Of a DNA stretch of 64,000 nucleotides, positions 17,387-34,104 are shown in pieces. Location of the stretch: positions 1 to 64,000 of the forward strand of contig UBQX01000004.1 in the NCBI GenBank assembly GCA_900467685.1, given 5' to 3'. The position numbers and the translations under genes were made by a program. The number at the start of each line of letters is the position of its first letter. The stretch's first letter is position 1. The notes beneath the pieces are model-generated. The model was given only the letters and a program-made list of their open reading frames with translations. It searched no databases and was not told the DNA's origin. The DNA comes from Hyphomicrobiales bacterium. GTDB lineage: Bacteria; Pseudomonadota; Alphaproteobacteria; Rhizobiales; Rhizobiaceae.

Positions 17387-17471
17387 ACACCCGACAAAAA
17401 CATCCGAGAAGCGGCGTCCGCGCGGAGAGGCGAGGCCTGCCGACACCCTTAACTCCACGGAGATCACGATC

Positions 17472-18824: not shown

Positions 18825-18854
18825 CCGACAGACACCAGATCAGAGGACATCCCC

Positions 18855-19721
18855 ATGGCGCTCGATATCGAACAGTCCTATCCGCTGAACAACAGCCCGT
18901 CCAAAACGGGCAGACTGACCTCCGGACAGGCCGGCCCCGCCTCCTCCACGGGCGCGCTCGGTCGGCTTGTCCGGGGCGGCGTTGAGGGCGCAGTCGTGCG
19001 TTACGGCTCGATCATCGCGCTTGCCATCCTCTGGCAGGTGTCGGCAACCGCCGGGTGGGTAAACCCGGCGGTCATCCCGCCGCTCGACCGCATCTTTGAC
19101 GCGGTGGTCAACGGCCCGCTCTGGCGCGATGTCACCATCAGTCTACAGCGCGCCGGCATCGCTTTCGCTGCAGCCGTTGCGCTCGGCATTCCGCTCGGCC
19201 TCTTCATGGGCGAGATCCGCATCGTCGAACGCGCGCTCGATCCGATCCTGCAGCTTCTGCGCCAGACCTCGGCGCTGGCGCTTTATCCGGTCTTCATCCT
19301 GCTGCTCGGCCTCGGTGAAACCTCGAAGGTCTTCGTCATCTTCTGGGCGACGCTCTTCCCGATCCTGCTCGCCACCATTGGCGGCGTGAAGCAGGCCGAG
19401 CCTAAGCTCATCGAAATGGCCCGCGTCTACGGCGCCCGCCGGAGCCACATCTTCCGCAGCGTCGTGCTGCCGGGCGCGCTGCCGCAGATCTTCGTCGGCC
19501 TGCGGCTCAGCGCCACCACTGCGCTTCTTCTGCTCATCGCTGCGGAAATGATTGGCGCCAATAGCGGCCTCGGTTTCCAGGTGATGAACGCGCAATACAA
19601 TTTCCAGATCCCGCTGATGTTCGGCGCGATCCTGCTGCTCGCAGCCCTTGGCCTCGCCGCCAACGCCATCCTGGAAACACTTCAGAAGCGACTGTGCCGC
19701 TGGGCCCCCGCCAAGCCCTGA
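18855..19721 (+). CDS. ABC transporter permease (SsuC/TauC type)
   Basis: A 288-residue inner-membrane permease with a polar 50-residue N-terminal leader and about six membrane segments. The coupling EAA-type loop is EMARVYGARRSHIFRSVVLPGALPQIFVGLRL. The hallmark EMIGANSGLGFQVMNAQYNF places it with sulfonate, taurine and nitrate permeases. It lies 30 bp after the monooxygenase and partners the binding protein and ATPase that follow. Confidence 0.9.
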   Translation: MALDIEQSYPLNNSPSKTGRLTSGQAGPASSTGALGRLVRGGVEGAVVRYGSIIALAILWQVSATAGWVNPAVIPPLDRIFDAVVNGPLWRDVTISLQRAGIAFAAAVALGIPLGLFMGEIRIVERALDPILQLLRQTSALALYPVFILLLGLGETSKVFVIFWATLFPILLATIGGVKQAEPKLIEMARVYGARRSHIFRSVVLPGALPQIFVGLRLSATTALLLLIAAEMIGANSGLGFQVMNAQYNFQIPLMFGAILLLAALGLAANAILETLQKRLCRWAPAKP

Positions 19722-19758
19722 ACAGCCGCACCACCCCATTGATCAAGGAGACACCATC

Positions 19759-20763
19759 ATGACCACCATCAACCGCCGCCGCTTCAACGCGCTCGCCGCC
19801 CTGTCCGCCAGCCTCTTCCTCTCGACCCCTATGGGCTTTGCCTTCGCCGCCGGTCCGGAAGAGGTGAAAATCCGCTACCTCGCCGATCAGGGCGGCCTGT
19901 CCGGCCATGAACTTGCCGCTGCACTCGGCTATTTCGACGGCACCGGCATCACGATCGAAAATGTCGGCTATGCCCAGGGTGGCCCGGCCTCGCTCTTCGC
20001 GCTGGCCTCGGGCAATGTCGAACTTGGCAGTGCCGCGACCTCTGCCGTGCTGAACTCGATTGCCGGCGGCAACGACTTCGTGGCGGCCTATCCGTCCAAC
20101 GGCATCAACCAGAAGACGGAAAGCATCTTCTATTCGCTGGATGGCAGCCCGATCAGATCGATCAGGGATCTGGCCGGCAAGACGATTGCCGTCAACACGC
20201 TGGGCGCCCATCTCGACTACACGGTGCGCGAGGCGCTCCACTCCGTCGGCCTGCCGGAAAATGCCGCCAAGCTGGTCGTCGTGCCGGGCCCGCAGCTGGA
20301 GCAGGTTCTGCGCTCGAAACAGGTGGACGTGGCTGCCTTCGGCTACTGGCAGAAGACCTTCGAGGGTGCGGCCCTGAAGACCGGCGGCCTGCAGAAGATC
20401 TTCGGCGATACGGACGTCCTCGGCGAAATCGCCGGCGGCTTCGTGGTGCTGCGCCGCGACTGGATCAAGGCCCATCCGAAGGCGGCGCAAATCTTCGTCG
20501 AACAGTCGCAGCGCGCGCTCGACTACGCTCAGAACCATCCGGAAGAAACGAAAAAGATCATCGCCAAAGTCCTGACCGCGCGCGGTGGCAACGGCGAGAT
20601 TGCCCAGTATTTCACCGGCTACGGCCTGCGTCCCGGCGCCAAGGCGACCGATCGCGACATTCAGTTCTGGATCGACATCCTCGTGCGTGGCGGCCAGATC
20701 AAGAAGGACCAGATCAAGGTCGAGAACGTGCTGTACACGCCGGAGCGCTTCGCCAGCAACTGA
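19759..20763 (+). CDS. Periplasmic substrate-binding protein (SsuA/NrtA type)
   Basis: A 334-residue solute-binding protein. The leader MTTINRRRFNALAALSAS has a Tat-like RRRF motif before a hydrophobic stretch and a cleavage-type AFA-AG site near residue 32. The mature part shows the aliphatic-sulfonate binding fold (GNVELGSAATSAVLNSIAGG; LRSKQVDVAAFGYW). The start at 19759 follows AAGGAG. It gives the transporter its specificity, presumably for the compound oxidised by the LLM monooxygenase. Confidence 0.9.
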   Translation: MTTINRRRFNALAALSASLFLSTPMGFAFAAGPEEVKIRYLADQGGLSGHELAAALGYFDGTGITIENVGYAQGGPASLFALASGNVELGSAATSAVLNSIAGGNDFVAAYPSNGINQKTESIFYSLDGSPIRSIRDLAGKTIAVNTLGAHLDYTVREALHSVGLPENAAKLVVVPGPQLEQVLRSKQVDVAAFGYWQKTFEGAALKTGGLQKIFGDTDVLGEIAGGFVVLRRDWIKAHPKAAQIFVEQSQRALDYAQNHPEETKKIIAKVLTARGGNGEIAQYFTGYGLRPGAKATDRDIQFWIDILVRGGQIKKDQIKVENVLYTPERFASN

Positions 20764-20774
20764 CCGCCCATGAA

Positions 20775-20803
20775 AGGCCGGCGCATCGAGCACCGGCCTT
20801 CTT
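20775..20803 (+). terminator. Intercistronic stem-loop between binding protein and ATPase
   Basis: GGCCGG pairs with CCGGCC around an 11-nt loop and is followed by TTCTTT. Placed after the binding-protein gene inside the operon, it probably acts as a partial terminator or mRNA 3-prime protector, giving more binding protein than ATPase. Confidence 0.5.
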
Positions 20804-20824
20804 TCCCAGGAAGCGAGGTTTGAC

Positions 20825-21598
20825 ATGACGACGACTGCATCTGAATCCCTCCGCGGCGAGGTCACGATCCGCGATCTCTCCAAGACTTTCAACATCAACG
20901 GCCGCGCGCTGAACGTGCTGAAGGGCGTCAACCTCCACATCCGCGGCGGCGAATGCCTCGCCATCGTCGGCGCCAGCGGCTCCGGCAAGACCACGCTGCT
21001 GCGCGTGCTGGCCGGTCTGGAAGAGGCCGACGAAGGCCGCGTGCTGATCGACGGCGAGCCGGTGCACGGCGTCGGCACAGAACGCGCCGTCATCTTCCAG
21101 GAGCCGCGCCTGTTCCCTTGGCGCACCGTGATCGAAAACGTCGCCTTCCCGCTGGAGGTGCGCGGCCTCTCCCGCGACGAGGCCCGCAGGCGCGCCCGCC
21201 GCTATGTCCAGCTCGTGGGCCTCGGCGACTTCATCGAAGCCTATCCCGCGCAACTCTCCGGCGGCATGGCCCAGCGCGTCGGCATCGCCCGCGCACTCGC
21301 CATCCAGCCCGAAATTCTCCTCCTCGACGAGCCGCTCGGCGCGCTCGACGCCATGACCAAGCTCACCATGCAGGAAGAACTCACCCGCATCTGGCGCGAG
21401 GAAAAGGTCACCATGGTCATCGTCACGCACGATCTAGAAGAAGCCATCTACCTCGCCGACCGCGTGCTCGTCCTGCCGAAGGACAAGGGCGGCCGCATCA
21501 GGGAAATCGAGGTGAACCTGCCAAGGCCGCGAAACCGCAGCGAGGGCGGGTTCGTGAAGCTGCGAGAGGAATTGCTGGGGGAATTCGGCCTGCATTGA
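20825..21598 (+). CDS. ABC transporter ATP-binding protein (SsuB/TauB type)
   Basis: A 257-residue nucleotide-binding subunit with Walker A GASGSGKT, Q-loop FQEPRLFPWRTV, signature LSGGMAQR and Walker B ILLLDEP followed by the D-loop and H-loop VTHDLEEA. The closest type is the sulfonate/nitrate/taurine ATPases. It completes the transporter in the order reductase, monooxygenase, permease, binding protein, ATPase. Confidence 0.92.
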   Translation: MTTTASESLRGEVTIRDLSKTFNINGRALNVLKGVNLHIRGGECLAIVGASGSGKTTLLRVLAGLEEADEGRVLIDGEPVHGVGTERAVIFQEPRLFPWRTVIENVAFPLEVRGLSRDEARRRARRYVQLVGLGDFIEAYPAQLSGGMAQRVGIARALAIQPEILLLDEPLGALDAMTKLTMQEELTRIWREEKVTMVIVTHDLEEAIYLADRVLVLPKDKGGRIREIEVNLPRPRNRSEGGFVKLREELLGEFGLH

Positions 21599-21744
21599 GG
21601 GTCCCACACGGCCGTTGAACGATGCACTCCATGCTGGCCCCGCGACGTCATCCGCCGGAGGGCTGGTTGCGGTCCGACGGGATCCGGTTCATCCGGACCG
21701 TTAAGCCCGCTGACCGCTATCTGACCTGAGCCTGAAATGATGAC

Positions 21745-21765
21745 GCGGCGTGGAACTCACGCCGC
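21745..21765 (-). terminator. Stem-loop at the end of the TrpA/TrpB-like operon
   Basis: GCGGCGTG pairs with CACGCCGC around a 5-nt loop, just beyond the stop codon of the last gene of the minus-strand operon. There is no clear T run, so it may work as a weak or factor-assisted terminator. The rest of the convergent gap 21599-21744 shows nothing else. Confidence 0.45.
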
Positions 21766-21769
21766 CCTG

Positions 21770-22618
21770 CTACCCCAAGGTCGCCAAATCGATGGCGTCC
21801 CGATAGCTCTTGATCGTATCAGCAACGTGGAGGTGAAAGACCGCGTCGGTCGGTTGTTCGCGTTTGAACTCGAGGAACCGATCAATCAGAGCTGTGGCGA
21901 CGATCACGCCGTCGGCGACCTTCGCGACATCCGCAGCAAGTTCCGGCGTCTTCACGCCAAAGCCTACCATGATGGGGAGACTGGATTGCCGGCGGCAGCG
22001 TTCCACGGCCTGGGCAATCACTTCCTTCGATGCGGACGGGCCACCTGTCGGACCAACGACTGGGATGCAATAGAGAAAGCCACCGATGCCCGGCTTTTCG
22101 ACCGCAAAATCGCGCGCTTCGAGCGTCGGCGCGGCAAGCGGGATCATGTAGAGCCCGTGCTTTGCCAGCGCCTTGACCAGATCGTCGGCCTCGCGCAGAG
22201 GAAAGTCGGCGGCGATCAGGCCATCGATGCCGGCTTCCGCTGCGGCTTCTGCAAAGCCCTCGTAACCCATGGTAATGACGGGATTGGAATAGCCCATCAG
22301 GATCAGCGGCGTGCGGTCGTCCGTTTCCCGAAAGGCGCGGCAGAGGTCCAAGGTGCGACGTAGGTTCCCACCCGCCGCGAGAGCGCGCCGGTTCGCCTTC
22401 TGGATCGTCGCGCCGTCGAGAATGGGATCCGAAAAGGGGTGTCCGATCTCGATCAGGTCGATGCCCGATGCGGCGAAGGTCTTGAGCCTTTCGAGGCTTT
22501 CGTCAAAGCTCGGATCGGAGGCGACGGTGAAGGTGACGAAGGCCTTGCGATTCTCGTTACGGAGCCGTTCGAACATGGCGTCGATGCGGTTGATGCGTTT
22601 CGGGGCGCTTTTGGCCAT
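21770..22618 (-). CDS. TrpA-like retro-aldolase, copy 1 (last gene of a sugar-type catabolic operon)
   Basis: A 282-residue TIM barrel of the tryptophan-synthase alpha family. Both catalytic acids of TrpA are kept: E57 in LIEIGHPFSDP and D68 in LDGATIQ, 11 residues apart as in E. coli TrpA (E49/D60). The barrel-end phosphate region (IMVGFGVKTPE; DGVIVATALI) is recognisable. TrpA cleaves indole-glycerol phosphate to indole and glyceraldehyde 3-phosphate. Here the gene sits next to a TrpB-like gene but in an operon with a sugar ABC transporter and kinase, so a catabolic retro-aldol on another phosphorylated glycerol-type side chain is inferred. Confidence 0.82.
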   Translation of the reverse strand: MAKSAPKRINRIDAMFERLRNENRKAFVTFTVASDPSFDESLERLKTFAASGIDLIEIGHPFSDPILDGATIQKANRRALAAGGNLRRTLDLCRAFRETDDRTPLILMGYSNPVITMGYEGFAEAAAEAGIDGLIAADFPLREADDLVKALAKHGLYMIPLAAPTLEARDFAVEKPGIGGFLYCIPVVGPTGGPSASKEVIAQAVERCRRQSSLPIMVGFGVKTPELAADVAKVADGVIVATALIDRFLEFKREQPTDAVFHLHVADTIKSYRDAIDLATLG

Positions 22619-22619
22619 G

Positions 22620-23807
22620 TCAGCTGTCCTGCCAGAGAATGTCGATGTCCTTGTCGCCGGAGGAGGGGGTCATGACGACGACCGCCTCGTGCGGCTCCAT
22701 GGTGCGGGCCACATGTTCAGCCGCCGCCAGCGCGTGGCCCGCCTCCAGGCAGATAAGCACGCCTTCCGTTTCGGCGAGCCGCCGCACCGCCCGTTGGGCC
22801 TCCGCGTCCGTGGCCGTCATGGTTTCAACGCGGCCGCGCGAGACGAGATCCGCCAGCTGCGGCGCAGAACCCGGATAGGCGAGCCCCGGCGCAATGGAAT
22901 TGGCGGCCAGGATCTGTCCCTCCGCGTCAGCCAGAACCAGCGTTTCGGCACCGTGGAAGATGCCGCGCCGGCCTTGCGAAAGTCTAGCCGAATTCGGCGC
23001 GCCGGCCTCTCCGGAGCCTGCGGCCTCCACGGCGATCAGCCGGATCGACGGGTCGGAGACGAAGGAGGAGAAAAGGCCGATGGTGGACGAGCCGCCACCA
23101 ACCGCCGAAAGCACGGCGGAAGGCAGCACGCCGCCTTCGACCAACTGCAGCCGGGTTTCCTTGCCGATGACCTGCTGGAAGGCCGCGACCATTTCGGGAT
23201 AGGGATGCGGTCCGATCGGCGCGCCGGCGACATAGGCGTCGGTGTCGGAATTTCCCATCCAGTGGCGGATGGCCGCACTTGTCGCGGAGCTGAGCGCCCG
23301 GTCGGCGTCCTCGACGATTTCCAGCTTCGCGCCGAAAAGCCGCATCTTCTTGCATGCCTGCGGCTGGGCCGCCGCATCGCGCGCGCCCATGTAGATCGTG
23401 CAACGCATGCCGAAGCGGGCGGCAACGGCGGCCGTCGCGATGCCGTTCTGGCCCGACCCCGTATCAGTCACGACAGCCGAAAGGCCCATCCGCCGGGCGA
23501 GTAGGCATTGGCCGACCGCCGAGTTGGCATAGTTGCCGCCGTTGAAGGTCAGGTCGTCGCGCTTCAGCACGATGCGCGCGCCGCCGGACCAGCTCGGGAA
23601 GGCCGGAATATCGAAGAGCGGCGTCGGCCGTCCGACGAAGCGGTTGAGCAGATGCGTAAGCTCTGTGTGAAAGGCCGGATCGCTCCAGGCGCTGCGGAAA
23701 CCTGCCTCCAGCCGGTCGAGCACCGGCAGAAGGACGGGTGCCACGAACTGTCCGCCAAAGGAGCCGTAGCGGCCGGGACGGCTTTCGACCTTCAATGCAC
23801 GTGCCAT
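22620..23807 (-). CDS. TrpB-like fold-type II protein lacking the PLP lysine
   Basis: A 395-residue protein clearly homologous to tryptophan synthase beta: RYGSFGGQFV, LKRDDLTFNGGNYANS, DTGSGQNGIATA, YMGARD, GPHPYPEMVAAFQQVIG, the PLP-phosphate loop VGGGSS and a C-terminal SSGDKDIDIL. In TrpB the segment GGAHK holds the lysine that forms the Schiff base with PLP; the aligned segment here is GGNYA, so Y93 replaces that lysine. The helper glutamate of ETGAGQ is aspartate (D115). Normal tryptophan synthesis therefore looks impossible. It overlaps no gene but is packed between the permease and TrpA-like copy 1 with 1-2 bp gaps, consistent with one complex. Confidence 0.85.
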   Translation of the reverse strand: MARALKVESRPGRYGSFGGQFVAPVLLPVLDRLEAGFRSAWSDPAFHTELTHLLNRFVGRPTPLFDIPAFPSWSGGARIVLKRDDLTFNGGNYANSAVGQCLLARRMGLSAVVTDTGSGQNGIATAAVAARFGMRCTIYMGARDAAAQPQACKKMRLFGAKLEIVEDADRALSSATSAAIRHWMGNSDTDAYVAGAPIGPHPYPEMVAAFQQVIGKETRLQLVEGGVLPSAVLSAVGGGSSTIGLFSSFVSDPSIRLIAVEAAGSGEAGAPNSARLSQGRRGIFHGAETLVLADAEGQILAANSIAPGLAYPGSAPQLADLVSRGRVETMTATDAEAQRAVRRLAETEGVLICLEAGHALAAAEHVARTMEPHEAVVVMTPSSGDKDIDILWQDS

Positions 23808-23809
23808 GG

Positions 23810-24742
23810 TCAGGCTCCCTGCTTGCCGGCGCGGCGGACGAGAACCGCGGCCAGGATGATCGTGCCGGTGATGATGTCCTGCAGGAAGGTCGACACGCCA
23901 AGGATTGTCAGGCCGTTGCCGATGACGGCGATAATGGCGGCCCCAACCAGCGTCCCCGGCACGTTGGCCTCGCCCTCGCGAAACGCCGTCATGCCGAGGA
24001 AGACGGCGGCATAGGCGGAGAGCAGATAACCGCCACCACCCGTTGGATTGGCCGAGCCGATGCGGGCCGTCAGGAGAATGCCGACCAGCGCGGAGAGAAC
24101 GGCGCTGACGATGAAGGCGAACATCGTGTTCGGGACGATGCGCACGCCGGCAAGGCGCGCCGCCTCGCGATTGCCGCCGATGGCATAGAGCCGCCGGCCG
24201 ATCTCGACCTTGTCGAGGATGATCCAGGCGCAGGCGGCGACGCCGATCAGCCACCAGGTCAGGGTCGGCAGGCCGAGCATCGTGCCGCGCCCGATATCGC
24301 GGAATTCAGCAGGGATGTTGCCGAAGAGCGTCGCGCCCTCGCAGAGCCAGAAGGTGATGCCTCCGATGATCGTGCCAACGGCAAGCGTTGCGATGAAGGA
24401 GAGAACTTCGAAACGCGAGACCACGAAGCCGGAGACCGCGCCGAAGACGGCAGCGGCGGCCAGAACTGCCAGACACGCAATCGGGGCGGGGACGCCGACC
24501 TTGAACAGGAAGACGACGAGGATGCCGCCGAAGGAAACGATCGAGGCGGTCGAAAGGTCGAATTCTCCGACAGCCATCACCACAGTCGCGCCGATCGCAA
24601 CGATTGCCAACAGGGTCATCTGCTGCGTGATGTTGATGAGGTTGCTGGGCGAGCCGAAGGCGCCGGGCGATGCGATGGAGAAGGCGATGATGATGATGAC
24701 GAGGGCGGCGAGCGTGCCGAAACGTCTGACAAAACCGGTCAT
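23810..24742 (-). CDS. ABC transporter permease, ribose/CUT2 family (RbsC-like)
   Basis: A 310-residue inner-membrane permease with about eight to ten hydrophobic segments. It is of the RbsC/CUT2 type (FDLSTASIVSFGGI; GNREAARLAGVRI, the coupling region; FREGEANVPGTLVGAAIIAVIGNGL). It imports a pentose, polyol or similar small sugar-like solute together with the ATPase, whose stop overlaps its start by ATGA, and the binding protein. Confidence 0.9.
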   Translation of the reverse strand: MTGFVRRFGTLAALVIIIIAFSIASPGAFGSPSNLINITQQMTLLAIVAIGATVVMAVGEFDLSTASIVSFGGILVVFLFKVGVPAPIACLAVLAAAAVFGAVSGFVVSRFEVLSFIATLAVGTIIGGITFWLCEGATLFGNIPAEFRDIGRGTMLGLPTLTWWLIGVAACAWIILDKVEIGRRLYAIGGNREAARLAGVRIVPNTMFAFIVSAVLSALVGILLTARIGSANPTGGGGYLLSAYAAVFLGMTAFREGEANVPGTLVGAAIIAVIGNGLTILGVSTFLQDIITGTIILAAVLVRRAGKQGA

Positions 24743-26259
24743 GCTGCGGGATCTTTCCGTGACTGATGCTGGAATGCGGCGTCGATGATGCGCGCCGGCG
24801 TGAGGGAGGGGCCGGTGAGTTCGGCGGTAACTTCGCCGCCGGCGAGAACGAGGACGCGGTTGGCAAGGGCCAACAGCTCGTCCATGTCGGATGTCGTCAT
24901 GAGCACGGCAGCGCCCTCGTCGGCAAAGCGGCGGGCGACGGCATGGATTTCCGCCTTCGCGCCCACATCGACGCCGCGTGTCGGCTCGTCGAGGATCAGC
25001 AGACGGATCGGCCTGCCGAACCAGCGGCCGAAGAGAAGCTTCTGCTGGTTGCCGCCCGAAAGCGTGAGCGGCTTGGCAAAGGCCGAACTCATCTTGACCG
25101 ACAGGGCCGACTTCACCTCTTCCGCGCGCCGTTTCAGCGCCGCGAGGCCCACCCAGGGCAGAGATGGCGCGACACGCACGGCCTTGAGATTGGCAATGGC
25201 GAGGTTTTCGGCGATCGTGCGGCTGACGATCAGGCCCTCATGGCGGCGATCTTCCGGCACATAGGCGCCGCCGGCAGCGATCCGGTCGCCGATATGGCCC
25301 GGTCGCAACGCCCGGCCTTCGAGCGTGATCGTGCCTTCGCGATGGGACGTCGCGCCCCAGACGATCTTCATCAGCGATGTGCGTCCTGCGCCGACGAGCC
25401 CGTAAAGCCCGAGAATTTCGCCTGCCTTGATCTCGAAGGCGATGCGCGAACCGTGGTCGCCGAAGGGCAGGTCGGAGACCTTGAGCGCAACCGGGCTTCC
25501 GCCCGGTGTCGGTCTGGCGATCAGCTCCGCCTCCTCGCGGCCGGACATCAGCCGCACAAGGCCGGGGCGATCGATGTAGGAAATGTCGCCCGCTCCGGCC
25601 GTCGCGCCGTTGCGCAACACCGTATAGCGGTCGCAGATCTCCATCACCTCATCCAGTCGGTGCGAGATGAAGATGACGGCCACCCCGCGCTCGGCCAGCC
25701 GGCGCACGGCCTTGTGCAGGCGGCGCGCCTCGCCATCGGAAAGCGAGGCCGTCGGTTCGTCCATGACGACCAGTCGCGCTGGCTCGCCGATCAGCGCGCG
25801 GATGATTTCCACCAGCTGCTTCTGCCCGGTCGTCAGCCGTGCGGCGGGCACGTCGAGCGGCAGATCGGGGGCGATGTCGCGTGCTGTCTCCGCAATCGCG
25901 CGGGCCATCGCGGCCCGGTCGATGAAGGGGCCGCGTTTCGGATAGGCGCGGCCGACAAAGGCGTTCTCGACCGCGGTGAAATGCGGAACGAGGCTCAGTT
26001 CCTGATGGATAAAGCGAAATCCGAGCTCTTCGGCGTGGCGCACGCTCTCGATCGTCACGGGCTTCCCGTCGATCAGGATTTCGCCGGCATCGGGAGTCAC
26101 GAGTCCGGACAGCGTCTTGATCAGCGTCGACTTTCCCGCGCCGTTTTCGCCGAGCAGGCCATGAACGGAGCCCGCTGCCACATCAATATTCGCGCCGGCA
26201 AGCGCGCGCGCGCCGCCATAGCGCTTTTCAAGCGCCTTGATGCTGAGCAACATGGTCAT
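24739..26259 (-). CDS. Sugar ABC transporter ATP-binding protein, CUT2 family (RbsA-like)
   Basis: A 506-residue protein with two fused ATPase domains, as in RbsA. The first has GENGAGKST and the VVMDEPTASLS Walker B; the second has LSGGNQQK and LLILDEPTRGVDVGAK with a degenerate Walker A (LYGLVGAGRTSL), normal for this family. ATG at 26259 or 26253. It energises uptake through the downstream permease, with which it overlaps by 4 bp. Confidence 0.92.
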   Translation of the reverse strand: MTMLLSIKALEKRYGGARALAGANIDVAAGSVHGLLGENGAGKSTLIKTLSGLVTPDAGEILIDGKPVTIESVRHAEELGFRFIHQELSLVPHFTAVENAFVGRAYPKRGPFIDRAAMARAIAETARDIAPDLPLDVPAARLTTGQKQLVEIIRALIGEPARLVVMDEPTASLSDGEARRLHKAVRRLAERGVAVIFISHRLDEVMEICDRYTVLRNGATAGAGDISYIDRPGLVRLMSGREEAELIARPTPGGSPVALKVSDLPFGDHGSRIAFEIKAGEILGLYGLVGAGRTSLMKIVWGATSHREGTITLEGRALRPGHIGDRIAAGGAYVPEDRRHEGLIVSRTIAENLAIANLKAVRVAPSLPWVGLAALKRRAEEVKSALSVKMSSAFAKPLTLSGGNQQKLLFGRWFGRPIRLLILDEPTRGVDVGAKAEIHAVARRFADEGAAVLMTTSDMDELLALANRVLVLAGGEVTAELTGPSLTPARIIDAAFQHQSRKDPAA

Positions 26260-26278
26260 AATTCCAATGAGTAAGGAT

Positions 26279-26304
26279 GGCCGCCCCGTTCATCCGGAGC
26301 GGCC
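26279..26304 (-). terminator. Intercistronic stem-loop after the binding-protein gene
   Basis: GGCCGCCCC pairs with GGAGCGGCC (one mismatch) around an 8-nt loop between the binding-protein stop and the ATPase start. No T run follows. Such loops typically stabilise the upstream binding-protein message. Confidence 0.5.
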
Positions 26305-26313
26305 GTATGCCGG

Positions 26314-27231
26314 TCAGGGGCACTTCGCGCCGAGCGTTTCCGGTGTCAGCATGACCGCCGGGACATACATTTCGTCGCTGTCGGCCTTGCCGCCCTTCAG
26401 GATCTTGTCGAGCTGTTCGGCGCCCAGCGTCGCCATCTTCGGGAAGTCCTGGCGGAAGGTCGCCTTGTAATGCGTGCAGGACTTGATCATGTCGACGGCC
26501 TGGGCGTTGCCGTCGATGCCCATGATAATCAGCTTGGACTTGGGCAGCTCGGATTCGGTCGCCAGTTCCGCGCCAATGCCCGGATCGTCGAAGGCGGCCC
26601 AGACGCCGTCGATCTTGTCACCATGCTGGCGGAGGATGTTTTCCATCGCCACGCGACCGTCATCGACCGGACCCGGCACCTTCACGAAGTGATCGGCAAT
26701 GATCTTGATGTCGGGATACTTCTTCAACGTGGCGTCGAGGCCGAGTTCGCGCTGGTGAACGCCCGGATGGGCGGAGTGGAAGAACTTGACGATGTTGCCC
26801 TTGCCGCCCATCGCCTTGAACAGCGCCTCGGAGAGCTGCTGGCCGAGCTCGAAATTGTTCGACGTCACGTTGACGGCGACGTTGTTGCGCTTGGAGCCGT
26901 CGAGCGAGATCACAGGGATGCCGGCCTTGGCGGCCATGTCCACCTGATCGCCCACCTGGCCCGGATCGGTGGAGATGAGCACGATGGCGTTCGCCTTGGC
27001 GTTCACCGTGTCTTCCATGCGCGAGGCGAGTTGGCCGAAATCGTTGCGGGTGTCGATGATCGTCACCTTCCAGCCGCGCTTCTCGCCTTCGGCCTTGAAG
27101 CTCTGCGCCATCTCGTTGGTCGGGATGGAGCTGATATATGGCGTCAGAATGGTTACGTCGGTTGCAAGCGCGGCTGTGGAGCTGGCCAACGACAGCGCCA
27201 GCGCTGCAAGGGTCATCTTGATGGATTTCAT
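26314..27231 (-). CDS. Periplasmic sugar-binding protein, CUT2 family (RbsB-like)
   Basis: A 305-residue binding protein with a Sec signal peptide (MKSIKMTLAALALSLASSTAALA, cleavage after ALA near residue 23). It has a periplasmic-binding-protein-like fold (VTILTPYISSIPTNEMAQSF; DAIVLISTDPG-like segment; IIMGIDGNAQAVDMIKS). The start at 27231 follows GAGAGGAA. It provides the substrate specificity of the system; the ligand cannot be predicted beyond a sugar, polyol or glycoside-like compound. Confidence 0.9.
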   Translation of the reverse strand: MKSIKMTLAALALSLASSTAALATDVTILTPYISSIPTNEMAQSFKAEGEKRGWKVTIIDTRNDFGQLASRMEDTVNAKANAIVLISTDPGQVGDQVDMAAKAGIPVISLDGSKRNNVAVNVTSNNFELGQQLSEALFKAMGGKGNIVKFFHSAHPGVHQRELGLDATLKKYPDIKIIADHFVKVPGPVDDGRVAMENILRQHGDKIDGVWAAFDDPGIGAELATESELPKSKLIIMGIDGNAQAVDMIKSCTHYKATFRQDFPKMATLGAEQLDKILKGGKADSDEMYVPAVMLTPETLGAKCP

Positions 27232-27273
27232 GGGACTGTTCCTCTCGTCTTGTTGTTTCATTTCATGAGCGCT

Positions 27274-28749
27274 TTAGCGGTGCGGCTCGCCCGTCTCGAT
27301 GATCCCGAGCGGCTTCAGCGCGTCGATGGCCTTCAGATAGGCCTCGAACATGCGGTCGTAACGTTGCTTTCGCTTGGGATCTGGTTCGAAAATCGTCTGC
27401 ACGGATGTCATGGCTGGCACGGCCTCCGCAATGGTGGAGAAGGCGCCGACGCCAACGGCGGCCATGATGGCGGCCCCCAGGCATCCGACGTCGTTATAGC
27501 TGAAACGGTGCAGCGGCACGCCGAGGCAGTCGGCGCGGATCTGGCTCCACAGATCGGAGCGCGCACCGCCACCGCCATAGAGCAGCCAGTCCGGCCGGTA
27601 GCCGGCAGCCTCCGTCAGCGCATTGAAAAGATGACGTGCAGACAGCGCCACGCCTTCCATGACGGCCAGCGCGAATTCCGGTCCGCCGGTGCGGCTGTCG
27701 AGCCCGATGAAGGAGCCGCGGATATCGGCGTCCCACAGAGGGGCCCGTTCGCCTTCGAGATGCGGCAGGAAAAGAACCGGCCGCCCGTTGCGATCCGCCT
27801 TGCCGGCGAGTTCAGCAACATCGCCCGGCTCGATCCCGACCGTATTGCTCCACCAGCGCAGCGAATCCGCCCCGCTCTGCGTCGGACCGGCATTCACGAC
27901 GAGGCCGTCAACGGTCGCAAACGTGACGACGCCCGGCGCACCGATGCGCTGCGATCCGGCGAGCGCCAGGATTTCGCTGGTGCCGCTGACATACATGCCC
28001 TGGCCGGGCTTGAAGACGCCGCAGCCAAAGAGGTTGCCCCAGGCATCCATGGTCCCGACTGTGACCGGCACCCGCCGCGCATGGCTGCCGAGTTGCATCT
28101 CGCCGGCAATATCCGTGAAGAAACGCAGCGGCGGCAAGCGTTCGGCCGCCCCTTCGACGCGCGAAATCAGCGGCTCAATATAGCTGAGATCGAGACCAAC
28201 ATGGCCGAAGGAGGCGATGGGGTCCGCAACCGCCGCACCGGTCAGCCGGAGAAGGCAATAGTCCTTCGGCGACAGCACGTAGCGCGTCTTCTCCCAGAGG
28301 TCCGGATGGTGCTTCTTGAACCACATCATCTTGGCCAGCGCATGGCTTGCGCCGACCGGCATCTCCGCGCCCCACCATGCCTGCTTGTCGGCCGGCGAAA
28401 TGGCGCGGTCGAGCGCCTCCGCCTCCCGGGCGGCGCGCACGTCCTGCCAGACGATCGCGGGCGCCAGCGGCTCACCATCGGCATCAACGAAGACGTCAGT
28501 GTTGACCTGGCTGCAGAGCCCGACGGCGACCACTCGGTTGGGTTCGCGCCCGACGAGAAGCCCGTCGATGGCATCGCGCACGCCGTTCAGCCAATCCTGC
28601 GGGTTCTGTTCGACGAGGCCGGGGCCGGGGCGGGCGGTCCGATAATTGCGGCTCCAGTGGTCGACCACGTCGCCGGCAAGCGTAAAGAGCCCGGCCTTGA
28701 CGGCGGTCGAACCGATATCGAATCCGATCACATAGGCGTCTTCACGCAT
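27274..28749 (-). CDS. FGGY-family carbohydrate kinase
   Basis: A 491-residue FGGY kinase: N-terminal ATPase motif VIGFDIGSTAVKAGLF, substrate-side CSQVNTDVFVD and VWQDVRA, catalytic-aspartate segment VGTMDAWGNLFGCG, and C-terminal LYGGGGARSDLWSQIRADCLG. It is closest in type to xylulose/polyol kinases. It would phosphorylate the imported compound in the cytoplasm. Its ATG overlaps the stop of the upstream TrpA-like gene by 8 bp, so translation is coupled, which ties the kinase to the aldolase-like proteins. Confidence 0.9.
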   Translation of the reverse strand: MREDAYVIGFDIGSTAVKAGLFTLAGDVVDHWSRNYRTARPGPGLVEQNPQDWLNGVRDAIDGLLVGREPNRVVAVGLCSQVNTDVFVDADGEPLAPAIVWQDVRAAREAEALDRAISPADKQAWWGAEMPVGASHALAKMMWFKKHHPDLWEKTRYVLSPKDYCLLRLTGAAVADPIASFGHVGLDLSYIEPLISRVEGAAERLPPLRFFTDIAGEMQLGSHARRVPVTVGTMDAWGNLFGCGVFKPGQGMYVSGTSEILALAGSQRIGAPGVVTFATVDGLVVNAGPTQSGADSLRWWSNTVGIEPGDVAELAGKADRNGRPVLFLPHLEGERAPLWDADIRGSFIGLDSRTGGPEFALAVMEGVALSARHLFNALTEAAGYRPDWLLYGGGGARSDLWSQIRADCLGVPLHRFSYNDVGCLGAAIMAAVGVGAFSTIAEAVPAMTSVQTIFEPDPKRKQRYDRMFEAYLKAIDALKPLGIIETGEPHR

Positions 28750-29533
28750 CGAGGCCGCTCCTCAGGTCAAGAAGCAGCGCTTGGAGTTCATCCGATCCTG
28801 AAAGTGCGGCGCGCAGCACCTGCGAGCCGACCACGACGCCATCGGCATCGAGATCGCAGGCTTCTCGGGCCTGCGCGCCGCTGGATATGCCGAAGCCGAG
28901 CAGGATGGGGGCGGTGACGCCGGCTGCCTTGAGGCTCGAGATCCGCGCGGCATTGCCGGGGTCGACTTCCTTGCGCGGTCCGGTCGGGCCGTCATTGGAT
29001 TGCAGCATGACGTAGAATTCAGCCCGTCGCGCCCGTGCCATGCCGTTGTCGCTCAGCGGAAGCGGCAGAAATGCGGAGGGTGAAACGCCTGCCGCCGTCG
29101 CGGAGTTCTCCAGCCTGACCGCCAGCGGGTCGCCTTCCTGGGCAACCACGAGAAGGCTATCGAGCCCGCGCCACAGACCCGTGTCCGCAAAGGCCGGATG
29201 CGCTTCATCGGCATAGGTCATGAGAAGCGTGCGCGGCGGAACGCGAAACCGCGAGAGCCGGTCGAACACGGCATCTAGATCGCGCCGCCAGGACGCGCGG
29301 TCCGCGCGCGCCATGGAGGCACGAACATCGGCGCCGTCCAGGAACGGTTCGGGCGAGGCCATGCCGATCTCGATCACATCCACGCCCTCCCCGGCATAGA
29401 TGTCCAGAAGCTCGACGGGGACGGCCGGATCTCCCAGAGGAAAATAGCAGCTCAGCAGCGGCTTTCCTGCTTGCGCCGCAAATGGCGCGTCTCGTCTTGA
29501 TGTGGCGGTTCCCGTCGGCATGTCTGTCATCAT
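28742..29533 (-). CDS. TrpA-like retro-aldolase, copy 2 (first gene of the catabolic operon)
   Basis: A 263-residue TrpA-family barrel, divergent from copy 1. The catalytic pair is kept as E55 (VIEIGMASPEP) and D66 (LDGADV), again 11 residues apart. The phosphate-side loops are present (LLGFGISSGAQ; DGVVVGSQVL). It is the promoter-proximal gene and overlaps the kinase gene. Having two TrpA-like enzymes flanking a transporter, kinase and TrpB-like protein points to successive or alternative C-C cleavages rather than tryptophan synthesis. ATG at 29533 or 29530; no strong ribosome site is visible. Confidence 0.78.
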   Translation of the reverse strand: MMTDMPTGTATSRRDAPFAAQAGKPLLSCYFPLGDPAVPVELLDIYAGEGVDVIEIGMASPEPFLDGADVRASMARADRASWRRDLDAVFDRLSRFRVPPRTLLMTYADEAHPAFADTGLWRGLDSLLVVAQEGDPLAVRLENSATAAGVSPSAFLPLPLSDNGMARARRAEFYVMLQSNDGPTGPRKEVDPGNAARISSLKAAGVTAPILLGFGISSGAQAREACDLDADGVVVGSQVLRAALSGSDELQALLLDLRSGLDA

Positions 29534-29664
29534 TCCATATGCATCGCTCTATGTGGCGGCGTCGGGAGGAAGATGAAACAAGGTCATGGAATTGTCATGC
29601 GCCAAAATGTGCCCAAAGGGACAGCCAGGTTACAATTCCGCAGGATATGGATAGTGATTTCAGG

Positions 29665-30621
29665 TCAGTGCCGGTTTGCTGCGTCAGCAGAGGGTAGCAC
29701 GCCGAAGAAATCCCGATAGGCGGAGGAGAATCGCCCCAGATGCCGGAAACCGGCCTGGCTTGCCGCCTCGGCGACGGTCAAGCCTTTGGACCTGATGAGG
29801 CTCCGCGCCTTTTCCATGCGGATACGCGTCAGCATGTCGTAGGGTGTCGTCTGGTAGAAGCGCTGAAAACCTTCGTAGAGCGCGCGTTCGGAGACACCCA
29901 TTTCCTCCGCGATATCGGGGATGGAGAGGCGCTCTGCAAATCGCGCATGGAAGAGCTCCAGGGCACGCTTCACATGCCGCGGCGTTGCCGTTACGCGCTC
30001 CGGCACCACGGCGTCGGCCTTCACGAACGGGATGTTGCCGATGAGAAGATCGACGATGCGGTTCGTCAGCGCATCGCGCCGGATCCCATCGGCCTGCTCC
30101 GGAGCCGCGAAATCCCGCGCAAGCGAATTGAACATGGAAACGAGTTGACGGCCGTGGCTGGTGCGGAGATCTACGACCGGGTTGAACACCGGCAGGTCGC
30201 TAATGTTGCGGTGGGTGAGGCGGGCGAGCCGCTCCTCAAGCCGTTCAGCCTCGACCTGCAGCATCCATTGCCGCGTATTCGCGCGCCAACGGGAGCGGAA
30301 TTTCGGTCCAGGCGACAGAAGCAGCGCCTTGCCGGGGCTGGAGCGGATATCATCCGATCCATAAGAGATCTCGACTCCGCCGGTCAGCGGCATCTCAAGC
30401 ATGTAGAACCGGTCGAACCCGTCCGAGCGAACTTCGATATCGGTGCCATATTCCAGACTGTTGAATGCTCCGTTCGGCATGGAAAGGCCCATATGCCTCA
30501 TGCCGACGCGGCTGCCCGCAAGCGCTTCCAGTCGGTGGCTGCAGAATGTATGCGTCATGTAGTGCTCCGCCTCCAGCGGATCACTCGCGACGTAGCTGAT
30601 GACACTCCCCTCGGCCAGCAT
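29665..30621 (-). CDS. AraC-family transcriptional regulator
   Basis: A 318-residue regulator. Residues 1-190 form an AraC-binding-like ligand domain (FDRFYMLEMPLTGGVEI), and the C-terminal 100 residues form the double HTH (LSIPDIAEEMGVSERALYEGFQRFYQTTP; TVAEAASQAGFRHLGRFSSAYRDFFG). The ATG at 30621 is preferred because the frame upstream is low quality. It lies 131 bp upstream of the TrpA-like operon on the same strand and is the obvious candidate activator of it. Confidence 0.87.
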   Translation of the reverse strand: MLAEGSVISYVASDPLEAEHYMTHTFCSHRLEALAGSRVGMRHMGLSMPNGAFNSLEYGTDIEVRSDGFDRFYMLEMPLTGGVEISYGSDDIRSSPGKALLLSPGPKFRSRWRANTRQWMLQVEAERLEERLARLTHRNISDLPVFNPVVDLRTSHGRQLVSMFNSLARDFAAPEQADGIRRDALTNRIVDLLIGNIPFVKADAVVPERVTATPRHVKRALELFHARFAERLSIPDIAEEMGVSERALYEGFQRFYQTTPYDMLTRIRMEKARSLIRSKGLTVAEAASQAGFRHLGRFSSAYRDFFGVLPSADAANRH

Positions 30622-30743
30622 GCTTTCCGATCTATTTTGCTTGAACTCGCCGGCGGTCCCGTTGCCAGCCTCTTCCCTGTTCACATATTGAAAGCACAGT
30701 GTTTCCGAAAAGACAATCAGACTGCTTACGGGCCAACGCCTCG

Positions 30744-31124
30744 TCAACCTGAGAACCGCGACAGCAACTGCAATCGACGGAGCCGGTTTGCCGTCAGTTC
30801 CGGCACTGCACCATCGTGTAGTTCTCGCAGAGCTGCAATCCACGCATTTTCTGCAGTGTCGCTCGCGTCAGCACGGAAGCACTGCGCGATCTGATCCGAA
30901 ACCTCGTCGCCATACCAGTCGCGAAGCGCCATCGACATCAACTGTCTCTCGTTGCAGTCCAGCGCCGCCGCCAACGCTTTGACCATTCCGACAGGCACTT
31001 TTCGTCGGCCTTCGATGATACCGTCGATCTGTCCAGGGTCGGAAACGCCGCAGAGCAAGGCAATCTCAACGCTGCTATAGATCGAAACTTTTGCATGCGT
31101 GATCAGGAAATCGGCGATCGACAT
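30744..31124 (-). CDS. Hypothetical protein with a possible Cro-type HTH (126 aa)
   Basis: A 126-residue protein. Residues 15-60 (YSSVEIALLCGVSDPGQIDGIIEGRR... VGMVKALAAALDCNERQL) read like a degenerate Cro/XRE helix-turn-helix. The rest is helical with no motif I recognise. The ATG at 31124 is the only good start. It stands alone at the transition from host genes to the mobile region and may be accessory. Confidence 0.55.
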   Translation of the reverse strand: MSIADFLITHAKVSIYSSVEIALLCGVSDPGQIDGIIEGRRKVPVGMVKALAAALDCNERQLMSMALRDWYGDEVSDQIAQCFRADASDTAENAWIAALRELHDGAVPELTANRLRRLQLLSRFSG

Positions 31125-31364
31125 TGGTTCTGTCTTCGTTTGGTTCGGGCTCTCTCGTGCGTGCTCGCAGCTAGCTTATAGCGTGAAGCGAGATGGGACT
31201 GCTCGGCTGCCTGTGTTTAGCCGCTCCCGATCTCAGCGTTCCCATCGCCCCGCCAGCTATATTGATAGGTGAGTAGTCTGTCGGCGCCGCTGATTTGAAG
31301 CCGGCATTATCTTCGGCGGTTGCCACGGCCAGACTATCCAGCCAACAAACAAAGGATATTGCCG

Positions 31365-31781
31365 ATGAAGAATAACCATCCTGGTGCAAAAAGGGCGATG
31401 AGCGATGATGTGCGTCTGAAGCTCGGTGTCGGCCTTTGGGGCGTAGTCAAGAACGCGCTTACCGCCGGCCTTGCCGACCGCGGCATCAAGCTCGCCGACG
31501 AAGAAGTGAGGTTCGTCGCACGCTTTATGCTAGAGCATCTGGAGGCCAAGGGGCAGCGCATTGTTCCGGTTAAGGCGACGCTCGACATGCATGAGGCGAT
31601 GCGTGTGGCGTTGGACGAAGGCAAGCGCATGTCGCTGAAATGGGTTCAGGGGAAGGCAAAACAGCGCTGGCGATATCAGGCGGCCCTAGATGCGGCACCG
31701 GATTGGCGTCTTGGCTACGAGCAGGAAAGGGAGCGAGTTGTAGCAGAAGCCTCGGCGGCAACTGACCTTCAATCGACTTAG
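31365..31781 (+). CDS. Hypothetical protein (138 aa) near the left end of the integrated element
   Basis: A 138-residue basic, helix-rich protein with no recognised domain (LGVGLWGVVKNALTAGLADR; KWVQGKAKQRWRYQ). The start at 31365 follows AAAGGA. It lies outside the left direct repeat of the element at 32020. The following gap 31782-32148 contains no gene, only that repeat. Confidence 0.55.
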   Translation: MKNNHPGAKRAMSDDVRLKLGVGLWGVVKNALTAGLADRGIKLADEEVRFVARFMLEHLEAKGQRIVPVKATLDMHEAMRVALDEGKRMSLKWVQGKAKQRWRYQAALDAAPDWRLGYEQERERVVAEASAATDLQST

Positions 31782-32019
31782 CTGCTGGATCAGCCGCGCA
31801 AAGGGCCAAGGTTCGTATGATTTGACGCGGCGACCGCCTTCCCATCAAGACGTTGACGCGGCCGCCTGACATTCTTACGAGATTTCGAGATCGACGCGAT
31901 GTCTACGTTGGCACCTTCGGATGCTTAACTCCAAACATAAAGGCCTTTGCCGAAAGTGGGCCAGGCGGTAGGTCAGAAGCATCTAGAGCGAATAATTTCT
32001 CAATGAATTCAATTGGAAA

Positions 32020-32034
32020 TGGCGGACAGAGAGG
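32020..32034. repeat. Left direct repeat of the integrated element (attL candidate)
   Basis: TGGCGGACAGAGAGG occurs here and again at 42823-42837, just past the integrase gene. The flanks also share GTGCCAACA shortly after the repeat (32037 and 42851). The reverse complement, CCTCTCTGTCCGCCA, resembles the 3-prime end of a serine tRNA, although no complete tRNA gene is present at either copy. Confidence 0.65.
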
Positions 32035-32148
32035 TTGTGCCAACAGCCTTGAAAATCAGCCGTTTGAGCTTCCCAACCGGGCCTTTTCATCCTTTGATTT
32101 TTCAGGCGATTTTCTGGCGGCGTCCAACCGTTTTTCGGCGGTGCTGTC

Positions 32149-33429
32149 ATGAGCATTTCCGTGATGACGACGGTTTGGATGAAGGCTCCAGTCGAGGGCG
32201 GCGAGCTGCTGCTGTTGCTGGCGCTGGCGGACAACGCGAACGACGACGGCATCGCCTTTCCGAGTGTGTCGTATCTGGCCCGCAAGGCCAGAATGACGGG
32301 CCGAAACGTGCAGCTCTGCCTCCGCAAGCTCGAAAGCAAGGGCCTGATGCGGGTGATCCCGAACGCGGGAATGAGCGGAACGAACAAGTACCGGCTCGAA
32401 CTCAAGACCATTGAACAGTTCCGGAATGTCCAGGACAGCGCCGAAGATGCAGGGGGTGAAAATATTTCACCCCCCAAAACCCTAAAATCAGGGGGCGAAA
32501 AATTTTCACCGGGGGGTGAAGCCCACTTCACCGGGGGGGTGAAAAATGACGCACAAGGGGGTGAAGCCCACTTCACCCTAACCGTCATAGAACCATCAGA
32601 TAACCTCTCAGACGCGCATGCGCGCGTGAGAGAGCCGGATGATCCGTGTCCAGATTCTGGACACGGCTCTGCCTCGCCTGACGAAGAGCAGCCCGAAGAT
32701 CGGCGATTGCTTCGACGAGCGTTTCAGGCGCTGGTCAACGGCTGGCCTGGCTTCCAAGGCATGTCGCTTGAAGGGGCATGGAAGCAGTATCAGGCTCTAA
32801 CGCCTCAAGAGCGGCAGGACGCGGCACGGCGGAAAGATGCTTGGATCAAACTTCTCCGATCGCAGGGCAAGGATCACACGCCGGCACCATCGACCTATTT
32901 CCGAGACCGGCTTTGGGAGGCTGTGCCTGATCGGATCGAAACGCCAGCATCAGCGCAACAGATGGCAGCGCCCTTCGGCAAGCTCTGGAGCTACCACGTC
33001 CTGAAGCTTCTGAAAGCGCCACCGATCGAGCCGCCACCGCCATCGGCTTTCATCCGGCAGGTCATCGAAGGCGGGGGAGAGGCCGCCCGGCGGGCCATCC
33101 GAGATCGGAAGGCGGCTTACGGATGGCCGCAGGTCAACAGGATCTTGGAAACGGCCATGGACGGACGCGGATGCGCTGCTAGCGCAGCCGAGGCTGCCGA
33201 GCTTCCTGAGATGGAGGCCGTGGAAAAGAACTCACGCACCTTCGACGCATGGCGCATCGCCTTCACCGAAGCGGGCCTGCCGTTCATGCGAGTGCCCGAC
33301 CAGGTGCAGTTCGTCTGGCTGCCGAAGGCCGGACCTGCCGAGTGGGCGGGGGTGGGCGCGGGTCCTTCCCCGGCCCCTGCCGCCTGCGGCCCCGGAGGAC
33401 CCCGAGCGCGCGCTAGTGAGACCGCCTGA
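32149..33429 (+). CDS. Phage-type replication initiator with N-terminal winged HTH
   Basis: A 426-residue protein. Residues 1-90 form an HTH_36-type winged helix (VEGGELLLLLALADNANDDGIAFPSVSYLARKARMTGRNV...LESKGLMRVI). A repetitive GGE/GGV-F-SP linker lies at residues 100-145, and the C-terminal half is helical with no clear catalytic motif. It is the first gene inside the left repeat, as expected for a replication gene of a small phage or satellite. The linker codons form the palindromic repeats listed separately. Confidence 0.65.
   Translation: MSISVMTTVWMKAPVEGGELLLLLALADNANDDGIAFPSVSYLARKARMTGRNVQLCLRKLESKGLMRVIPNAGMSGTNKYRLELKTIEQFRNVQDSAEDAGGENISPPKTLKSGGEKFSPGGEAHFTGGVKNDAQGGEAHFTLTVIEPSDNLSDAHARVREPDDPCPDSGHGSASPDEEQPEDRRLLRRAFQALVNGWPGFQGMSLEGAWKQYQALTPQERQDAARRKDAWIKLLRSQGKDHTPAPSTYFRDRLWEAVPDRIETPASAQQMAAPFGKLWSYHVLKLLKAPPIEPPPPSAFIRQVIEGGGEAARRAIRDRKAAYGWPQVNRILETAMDGRGCAASAAEAAELPEMEAVEKNSRTFDAWRIAFTEAGLPFMRVPDQVQFVWLPKAGPAEWAGVGAGPSPAPAACGPGGPRARASETA
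32452..32578. repeat. Iteron-like palindromes inside the initiator gene (candidate origin)
   Basis: Within 127 bp there are five copies of a GGTGAA/TTCACC-based motif. Three are near-perfect palindromes: GGGGTGAAA-ATA-TTTCACCCC at 32453-32473 and two GGTGAAG-CCCA-CTTCACC units (about 32515 and 32560). They alternate with G-runs. Origins nested in the initiator gene are established for lambda O and many small phages, so this is the likely replication origin of the element. Confidence 0.6.
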
Positions 33430-33471
33430 AAACCTGACCTGACAACCCTTACAAGGGACTGACTGCCTGAC

Positions 33472-34086: not shown

Positions 34087-34104
34087 TCAGAAAAGGAAAC
34101 GATC

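Follow-up and report, generated by a model that had tools for sequence, protein, structure and literature searches.

Tryptophan synthase-like proteins in a kinase and transporter operon of Rhizobiaceae, one of them a TrpB relative without the PLP lysine

Why should a bacterium with an ordinary tryptophan synthase keep two further TrpA relatives and a TrpB relative among the genes of a sugar-type importer and kinase? The question is raised by a locus of a Hyphomicrobiales bacterium (Rhizobiaceae; assembly GCA_900467685.1), which we analysed within the first 64,000 nucleotides of contig UBQX01000004.1, hereafter called the window. In this operon a gene of an AraC-family regulator is followed by trpA1, a gene of an FGGY-family kinase, genes of the binding protein, ATPase and permease of a CUT2-type importer, and the trpBx and trpA2 genes (Table 1). 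The operon is real, conserved and, within the searches made, undescribed. We propose, giving this reading about an even chance, that it serves uptake and salvage or catabolism of indole-3-glycerol or a close analogue, with TrpBx in a non-catalytic role. From the sequences themselves come the gene content and linkage presented below, the loss and retention of residues, the purifying selection and the separation of the TrpA clades.

The host genome (43 contigs, 5.05 Mb) encodes three TrpA homologues, two in the operon and one on contig C34, in a trpB-trpA pair that is preceded by a trpF-like open reading frame (ORF), named by position and homology. A gene of indole-3-glycerol phosphate synthase (trpC, PF00218) is also present outside the operon. 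The initial annotation had proposed to look for a canonical trpBA elsewhere in the genome, since its absence would have spoken against a catabolic role; the pair on C34 answers this. With normal trpB-trpA and trpC genes elsewhere, the operon is therefore not the tryptophan pathway, and a spare trp operon is ruled out by these genes together with the loss of K87 described below.

TrpBx and the two TrpA proteins

The initial annotation had taken the trpBx product for a plain relative of TrpB, which did not hold: judged by its sequence, this conserved protein is a tryptophan synthase beta subunit devoid of its pyridoxal phosphate (PLP) lysine. Six orthologs (from the window, L027, Martelella mediterranea L028, G276, G160 and G570) were aligned with E. 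coli TrpB and ten other canonical TrpB proteins; here and below G denotes genomes and L loci, and L027 and G014, which share coordinates, were taken as one record. Residue roles were assigned according to the tryptophan synthase literature; those of E109 and D305 are also stated in section 8 of PMC12727527. The PLP lysine K87, present in E. coli TrpB and in 10/10 other canonical proteins, is tyrosine in all six TrpBx, and the motif around this site is GGNYANS in the first five orthologs aligned. Further replacements, each found in 6/6, are H82F, H86N, E109D, A112S, H115N, T190A and N236S. Position 305 is Ala or Ser, residues 377-379 are altered and K167 is lost in all six, while Arg is found at position 141 in one ortholog only, so that the closing pair D305-R141 is not intact. 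The GGGS loop (232-235), N89, Y186, E350 and D381-K382 are retained.

According to its AlphaFold model (predicted local distance difference test, pLDDT, 73.8), TrpBx still has the TrpB fold: all 50 Foldseek matches listed are tryptophan synthase beta chains with template modelling scores of 0.79-0.86, although the input alignments contained canonical proteins, which biases the models of both TrpBx and TrpA1 toward canonical folds. The ratio of nonsynonymous to synonymous substitutions (dN/dS) relative to the window copy was 0.03 for L027, 0.10 for L028, 0.15 for G276, 0.24 for G160 and 0.19 for G570, values which are rough for the four of five pairs with dS of 0.84-1.30. By this sequence measure TrpBx is under purifying selection. 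A decaying pseudogene is ruled out by the open frame in 6/6 orthologs and by the same ratios. The TrpBx proteins form a monophyletic clade whose stem is very long (3.89 changes per column). Each of the six adjoins a TrpA2, and a canonical-type TrpB is encoded elsewhere in all five TrpBx genomes searched (G000, G014, G276, G160 and G570; the Martelella genome was left out).

The two TrpA copies proved to be distinct; they were compared at the catalytic residues, the members of the ring pocket and the contacts with TrpB. TrpA2 retains E49, D60, the ring pocket and the docking residues P53, F54, D56, N104, D130 and P132 in 6/6 sequences, and has Ala at 234. Among eleven TrpA1 sequences E49, T183, G184, G213, G234 and S235 are retained in all and D60 in ten (Glu in G279); the ring pocket stays hydrophobic. 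Docking positions of TrpA1 are altered in 10/11 (position 53), 11/11 (54, 104 and 130) and 8/11 (132); D56 is retained in seven and altered in four. In the window copy positions 53-56, 104, 130 and 132 are all altered. TrpA1 is 28% identical to the canonical copy and differs from canonical TrpA at 153, 175 and 177. Its best sequence match in the PDB is maize BX1 (66 bits; about 26% identity), a stand-alone lyase of indole-3-glycerol phosphate (IGP), and the Foldseek matches listed for its model (pLDDT 86.6) are TrpA and BX1. Given its lost docking residues and BX1 match, TrpA1 is probably a lyase that acts alone, whereas the docking residues kept in TrpA2 suggest dependence on a TrpB, with TrpBx as the partner, and a TrpA2-TrpBx complex would be expected.

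The three proteins can be set against the systems which they resemble. Like lyases of BX1 type, TrpA1 has lost most TrpB-contact residues while keeping its catalytic Glu and, with one exception, Asp; unlike BX1, it is bacterial, lies beside an FGGY kinase in 11/11 loci and is a predicted lyase. With the TrpA-TrpB synthase the operon shares the fold, the catalytic Glu/Asp of TrpA, the docking residues of TrpA2 and the adjacent trpB-trpA gene order, but TrpBx is without the PLP lysine and many catalytic residues, and the operon has a kinase and importer and no trpF or trpC. The plant TSB-like pseudoenzyme activates TSA, with release of indole; its E109-equivalent is changed to A, S or P, and Glu in place of the 305-equivalent Asp holds the active state (PMC12727527). 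Like this protein, TrpBx is a TrpB paralogue without catalytic residues and expected to be without tryptophan-forming activity, has a TrpA partner and a replaced E109-equivalent, and occurs in genomes with a normal TrpB. Unlike it, TrpBx is without even the PLP lysine (K to Y), carries Asp at 109 and Ala or Ser in place of the D to E change at 305, is bacterial and belongs to a kinase and transporter operon; activation of TrpA2 by TrpBx is a prediction by analogy with the plant case. Residues bearing on such binding and activation give a mixed picture, with TrpA2 docking kept and K167 of TrpBx lost.

The TrpA tree resolves TrpA1, TrpA2 and the operon TrpA of sister loci (see below) as three separate clades; as the TrpA1 clade sits on a long branch, we place no trust in its joining E. 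coli TrpA. A single shared origin of the three TrpA sets is ruled out by this separation.

TrpA1 and the kinase subfamily in other genomes

Searches covered 297 genomes of the family, 397 of the order, 385 of the class and 349 of the phylum; those for TrpA1 and for the kinase within the family scored the top 5-8 candidates per genome, so that absence there is not proof. Within the family, TrpA1 matched 16/297 genomes at E <= 1e-15, of which eight, including the window genome, encode genuine orthologs (38-100% identity, 132 bits or more); the other eight matches (31-35% identity) were taken as canonical TrpA, G286 being the one checked further. In the order three of 397 genomes matched at E <= 1e-35 (the window genome, G570 and G619), G619 being the only carrier among 20 genomes of its own family. 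No TrpA1 besides that of the window genome was found among the 385 class genomes at E <= 1e-35, and none further among the 349 of the phylum at E <= 1e-32, where the three other matches all adjoin a canonical trpB. A scan of genome contigs gave 20 loci, two with TrpA1 (L027 and L028) and 18 with a TrpA closest to the canonical copy. In the plasmid collection TrpA1 matched 15 records and TrpBx 123, none of them reaching 60% identity; the TrpBx matches listed, 40 of the 123, share 41-44% identity and are named trpB where a gene is annotated. All ten genomes searched have, besides the operon copies, one canonical-type TrpB and TrpA.

The repeated linkage of TrpA-like genes to CUT2 transporters and FGGY kinases, which the initial annotation had suggested looking for, was found. 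The kinase gene adjoins trpA1 in 11/11 TrpA1 loci read, which exceeds what chance would give, CUT2 genes in ten (not in G619; G066 leaves its contig before the permease), araC in eight (not in L028, G113 and G619) and the trpBx-trpA2 pair in six. The kinase of G113 nests inside the TrpBx group, yet this genome has one TrpB only, of canonical type (E <= 1e-30); the trpBx-trpA2 pair can therefore be lost, and trpA1, kinase and CUT2 genes constitute the core. In G619 (L057, 10404-12837) a kinase-trpA1 pair is accompanied by a nearby SorC/DeoR-type regulator (by eye), and the 17 kb read around it contain no match to CUT2 genes.

A profile of the kinase matched 19/297 family genomes at E <= 1e-110: the eight with TrpA1 (809-908 bits) and eleven more (602-700 bits). 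Loci were read for nine of the latter (G019 and G095 were left out), and in all nine the CUT2 binding protein, ATPase and permease adjoin the kinase, although in L128 and L129 they lie on the other strand. Three genomes (G055, G112 and G183) carry on one strand the sequence trpA, trpB, araC, kinase, binding protein, ATPase and permease. In these sister operons (L125, L127 and L130) trpA stands before trpB, the reverse of the housekeeping order. Their TrpA-TrpB is a second copy, since each genome has another trpB-trpA pair elsewhere, whose TrpB is 85-87% identical to the canonical TrpB of the window genome (in G112 with only 99 residues compared). All checked catalytic residues of the sister-operon pair are intact, and ring-pocket position 232 of TrpA is changed to Ala in 3/3, which perhaps fits a bulkier, substituted indole. 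In the other six fetched kinase loci the stretch contains neither a TrpA nor a TrpB match, and araC occurs in one only (G286); G019 and G095 have a single TrpA each, on a different contig from the kinase, and the G095 kinase locus lies at a contig end. A TrpA homologue thus adjoins the kinase at 11/19 family loci.

In the kinase tree, with G619 and E. coli XylB on long branches, the TrpAB-linked kinases are sister to TrpA1-linked G279 and G225 (support 100/99), and the kinase of G286, a locus without Trp genes, is sister to TrpA1-linked G066 (95/97). Three TrpA lineages beside one subfamily of kinase and transporter would be hard to explain unless the kinase product were usable by TrpA chemistry. 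As the TrpA1 genomes were found through the TrpA1 search, only TrpA2 and the operon TrpA count as unselected evidence. On these sequence grounds the pattern points to a kinase product resembling IGP.

The kinase itself has both FGGY domains and the catalytic aspartate, as in the xylulokinase branch of the family, but it does not reach the cut-off of any of the 10 NCBIfam models that it matches, including the XylB equivalog (261 bits, cut-off 380). Val-Asn stands where xylulokinase has Met-His in 20/22 subfamily kinases aligned, and the two members scanned stayed under all NCBIfam cut-offs matched. The SQVNT motif is found in 19/22 (exceptions G619, G163 and G278) and MD-A/G-W around the catalytic Asp in 21/22.

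Proposed pathway and its alternatives

In the proposed pathway the CUT2 transporter would import indole-3-glycerol or an analogue with an electron-rich heteroaromatic ring and a three-carbon glycerol side chain, and the FGGY kinase would phosphorylate the terminal hydroxyl, yielding IGP or its analogue. Stand-alone TrpA1 and TrpA2 docked on TrpBx would then use the TrpA mechanism, with Glu49 as general acid/base and Asp60 holding the ring N-H, to break the bond between ring and C1' and give glyceraldehyde 3-phosphate and the free ring. TrpBx, having presumably lost PLP catalysis, would be kept as scaffold and activator of TrpA2, much as the plant TSB-like protein is for TSA, so that the ring would be released rather than made into tryptophan. 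In the sister operons the same kinase and transporter would feed the second TrpA-TrpB, with tryptophan or an analogue as product, and at loci without Trp genes the kinase product would perhaps be used by the housekeeping synthase. TrpA is not known to use a metal or Schiff-base lysine, the ring serving as electron sink. This need favours an electron-rich heteroaromatic and disfavours an ordinary sugar, and the kept hydrophobic pocket with D60 indicates indole or substituted indole. We infer in this way the substrate, the reactions and the catabolic direction; indole-3-glycerol or an analogue is the leading candidate substrate. The scheme of import, phosphorylation and TrpA-type cleavage had already been advanced in the initial annotation and is partly supported. 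It stands as the best fit to the retention of E49 and D60 and to the coupling with three TrpA lineages; the loci without Trp genes show that the kinase can work with another partner.

A number of points weigh against such a pathway. The nearest solved relatives of the kinase are xylulokinases, and the nearest solved chains of the binding protein are sugar- or ribose-type binding proteins, at best about 105 bits. Eight of 19 kinase loci are without an adjoining TrpA homologue; these may depend on the housekeeping synthase; alternatively, the kinase may act on a sugar, the link to TrpA being a later addition. The three TrpAB-linked genomes are close relatives and probably reflect one event. Without D305 (6/6), R141 (5/6) and K167 (6/6), TrpBx cannot activate TrpA exactly as TrpB or the plant TSB-like protein does, and, with the 305-equivalent Asp lost, either its activating mode must differ or it has another role. 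No gene for further indole use was found within the operon, and the literature matches listed hold nothing on point about natural occurrence of indole-3-glycerol in these habitats.

The same chemistry might act on another ring, that is on a non-indolic heteroaromatic with a glycerol side chain (e.g. a pterin or imidazole) cleaved to glyceraldehyde 3-phosphate. The strong divergence of TrpA1, with its differences at 153, 175 and 177, and Ala234 of TrpA2 speak for this unlikely but credible alternative; the catalytic residues of the sister-operon TrpA-TrpB, which match the housekeeping synthase apart from pocket position 232, point instead to indole or a substituted indole. CUT2 transporters mostly serve sugars. 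FGGY kinases mostly do so as well (PMC3245297). An ordinary ketose or polyol could accordingly be the substrate, with the kinase forming a sugar phosphate and TrpA1 now working as a sugar-phosphate aldolase or isomerase. The eight kinase loci mentioned above agree with this, and two loci without Trp genes (G191 and G121; L123 and L124) face a family-43-glycosidase-like gene (by eye), which would fit a sugar substrate. However, a sugar pathway leaves the second TrpA-TrpB pair and the TrpA2-TrpBx pair with its kept docking residues unexplained, and TrpA is not known to have a Schiff-base lysine or a metal that could replace the ring as electron sink; we regard it as improbable.

Two further explanations concern TrpBx. 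Its former PLP pocket could bind the released ring or a phosphate ligand and carry out PLP-free chemistry with Tyr87, Asp109 and Asn115, making TrpBx a new enzyme. Among the canonical-invariant columns 82 are retained and 37 switched in all six TrpBx, a count omitting columns where only some TrpBx retain the residue. Of the switched columns 23 are fixed in 6/6, among them F82, N86, Y87, D109, S112, N115 and A190, and the GGGS loop, on which a phosphate ligand might sit, is retained. Set against 113/244 fixed canonical-variable columns, however, this is only a weak excess (Fisher p = 0.08), and the switches at 302, 305, 310, 347-348 and 378-379 differ among orthologs, which leaves a new enzyme a rather remote prospect. 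It is extremely improbable that TrpA2-TrpBx still makes tryptophan as a spare synthase: TrpBx does pass the NCBIfam TrpB cut-off (407 bits against 392), but its catalytic lysine is gone in 6/6, E109, H86, H115, D305 and R379 are replaced, and trp genes are present elsewhere.

The indole-3-glycerol pathway, if true, would let a kinase feed tryptophan synthase chemistry from outside the trp pathway and would give FGGY kinases, which are known to act on sugars and polyols, a new role; a substrate guess would be gained for a xylulokinase-like subfamily present in 19/297 family genomes sampled. Allosteric coupling by way of a PLP intermediate has its textbook example in tryptophan synthase. In bacteria TrpBx would correspond to the plant TSB-like pseudoenzyme, with even the PLP lysine missing, and such a beta subunit with its own alpha subunit would allow a direct test of how far the coupling depends on PLP chemistry. 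In the open-access literature searched, no description of an operon of this type or of an indole-glycerol kinase was found among the matches listed. We suggest only tentatively that this is an undescribed bacterial route in which indole-3-glycerol, or a substituted form, is taken up and phosphorylated by a dedicated FGGY kinase, one lineage having a beta subunit that has given up PLP catalysis and serves only as a partner for the release of free indole by the alpha subunit.

Gene layout, regulator and neighbourhood

All genes of the operon lie on the minus strand and are open over their whole length. The seven genes following araC are tightly packed, overlapping by 8 and 4 bp or separated by 12, 54, 2 and 1 bp, and coordinates, spacing and Pfam matches bear out the arrangement described in the initial annotation. 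Binding protein, ATPase with double ABC domain and permease occur together in one operon, in families and order as in CUT2 sugar importers; unlike those, the binding protein is only distantly matched by solved sugar-binding proteins, as noted above. The trpBx start at 23807 replaces the mechanical ORF start at 24254, the real araC start is probably near 30621, and the second Met is the more likely start of the binding protein.

Table 1 Features of the operon in the window
Feature	Coordinates	Strand	Basis
araC, AraC-family regulator	29665..30843	-	mechanical ORF; Pfam AraC_binding_2 and HTH_18
TATCCATATCCTGC element, candidate operator	29640..29653	-	directly past the araC stop, upstream of trpA1
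trpA1, divergent TrpA-family lyase (predicted)	28742..29533	-	PF00290 70 bits (cut-off 27)
FGGY-family kinase, distinct subfamily	27274..28749	-	FGGY_N/FGGY_C 109/112 bits; SQVNT and TMDAW motifs
CUT2-type periplasmic binding protein	26314..27261	-	Peripla_BP_4 138 bits
CUT2 ATPase, two ABC domains	24739..26259	-	ABC_tran 161 bits
CUT2 permease	23810..24742	-	BPD_transp_2 106 bits
trpBx, TrpB-fold protein without PLP lysine	22620..23807	-	PALP 124 bits; K87Y, H86N, E109D, H115N, T190A, N236S, D305A
trpA2, TrpA-family lyase (predicted), TrpB-docking residues kept	21770..22618	-	PF00290 233 bits; TIGR00262 214 bits, above its cut-off

Homology to the congeneric locus L027 covers window positions 21789-30722 (89% over 8.9 kb), from araC, where it ends at 30722, to trpA2 almost exactly. 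It stops on both flanks; the two related species therefore carry the operon at different sites, and it may be mobile as a whole. Phage-type genes lie immediately upstream (window about 32100-34100), coding for a replication initiation protein (32149-33429) and a small terminase subunit (33472-34086). Downstream, on the other strand (17472-21598), an NtaA/DmoA-family FMN monooxygenase and a sulfonate/nitrate-type ABC transporter probably represent an unrelated scavenging set. An Rfam scan of window positions 17000-34000 gave no matches.

For three AraC proteins the nearest NCBIfam model is the anthranilate-dioxygenase regulator AndR (window 133, L130 90 and L122 129 bits; cut-off 350), a weak hint of an indolic or anthranilate-like effector. 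At L122 (13588-17309) genes resembling those of indolepyruvate oxidoreductase, which lie on the other strand, converge on the kinase/CUT2 operon of G286, which is without Trp genes. Such neighbours, seen at one of nine fetched loci (the other eight were not scanned for them), give a similarly weak hint.

The TATCCATATCCTGC element has its only exact match in the window at the operon, and 4 matches with at most two mismatches against 0.68 expected. By eye, a TATCCACATCCTGC-like element was recognized upstream of trpA1 in six of nine upstream regions (window, L027, L028, L048, L049 and L056), directly after the araC stop wherever araC adjoins, and this position makes it a possible AraC operator. 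An inverted GAATTGT repeat upstream of trpA1 is common only to the window and the congeneric locus.

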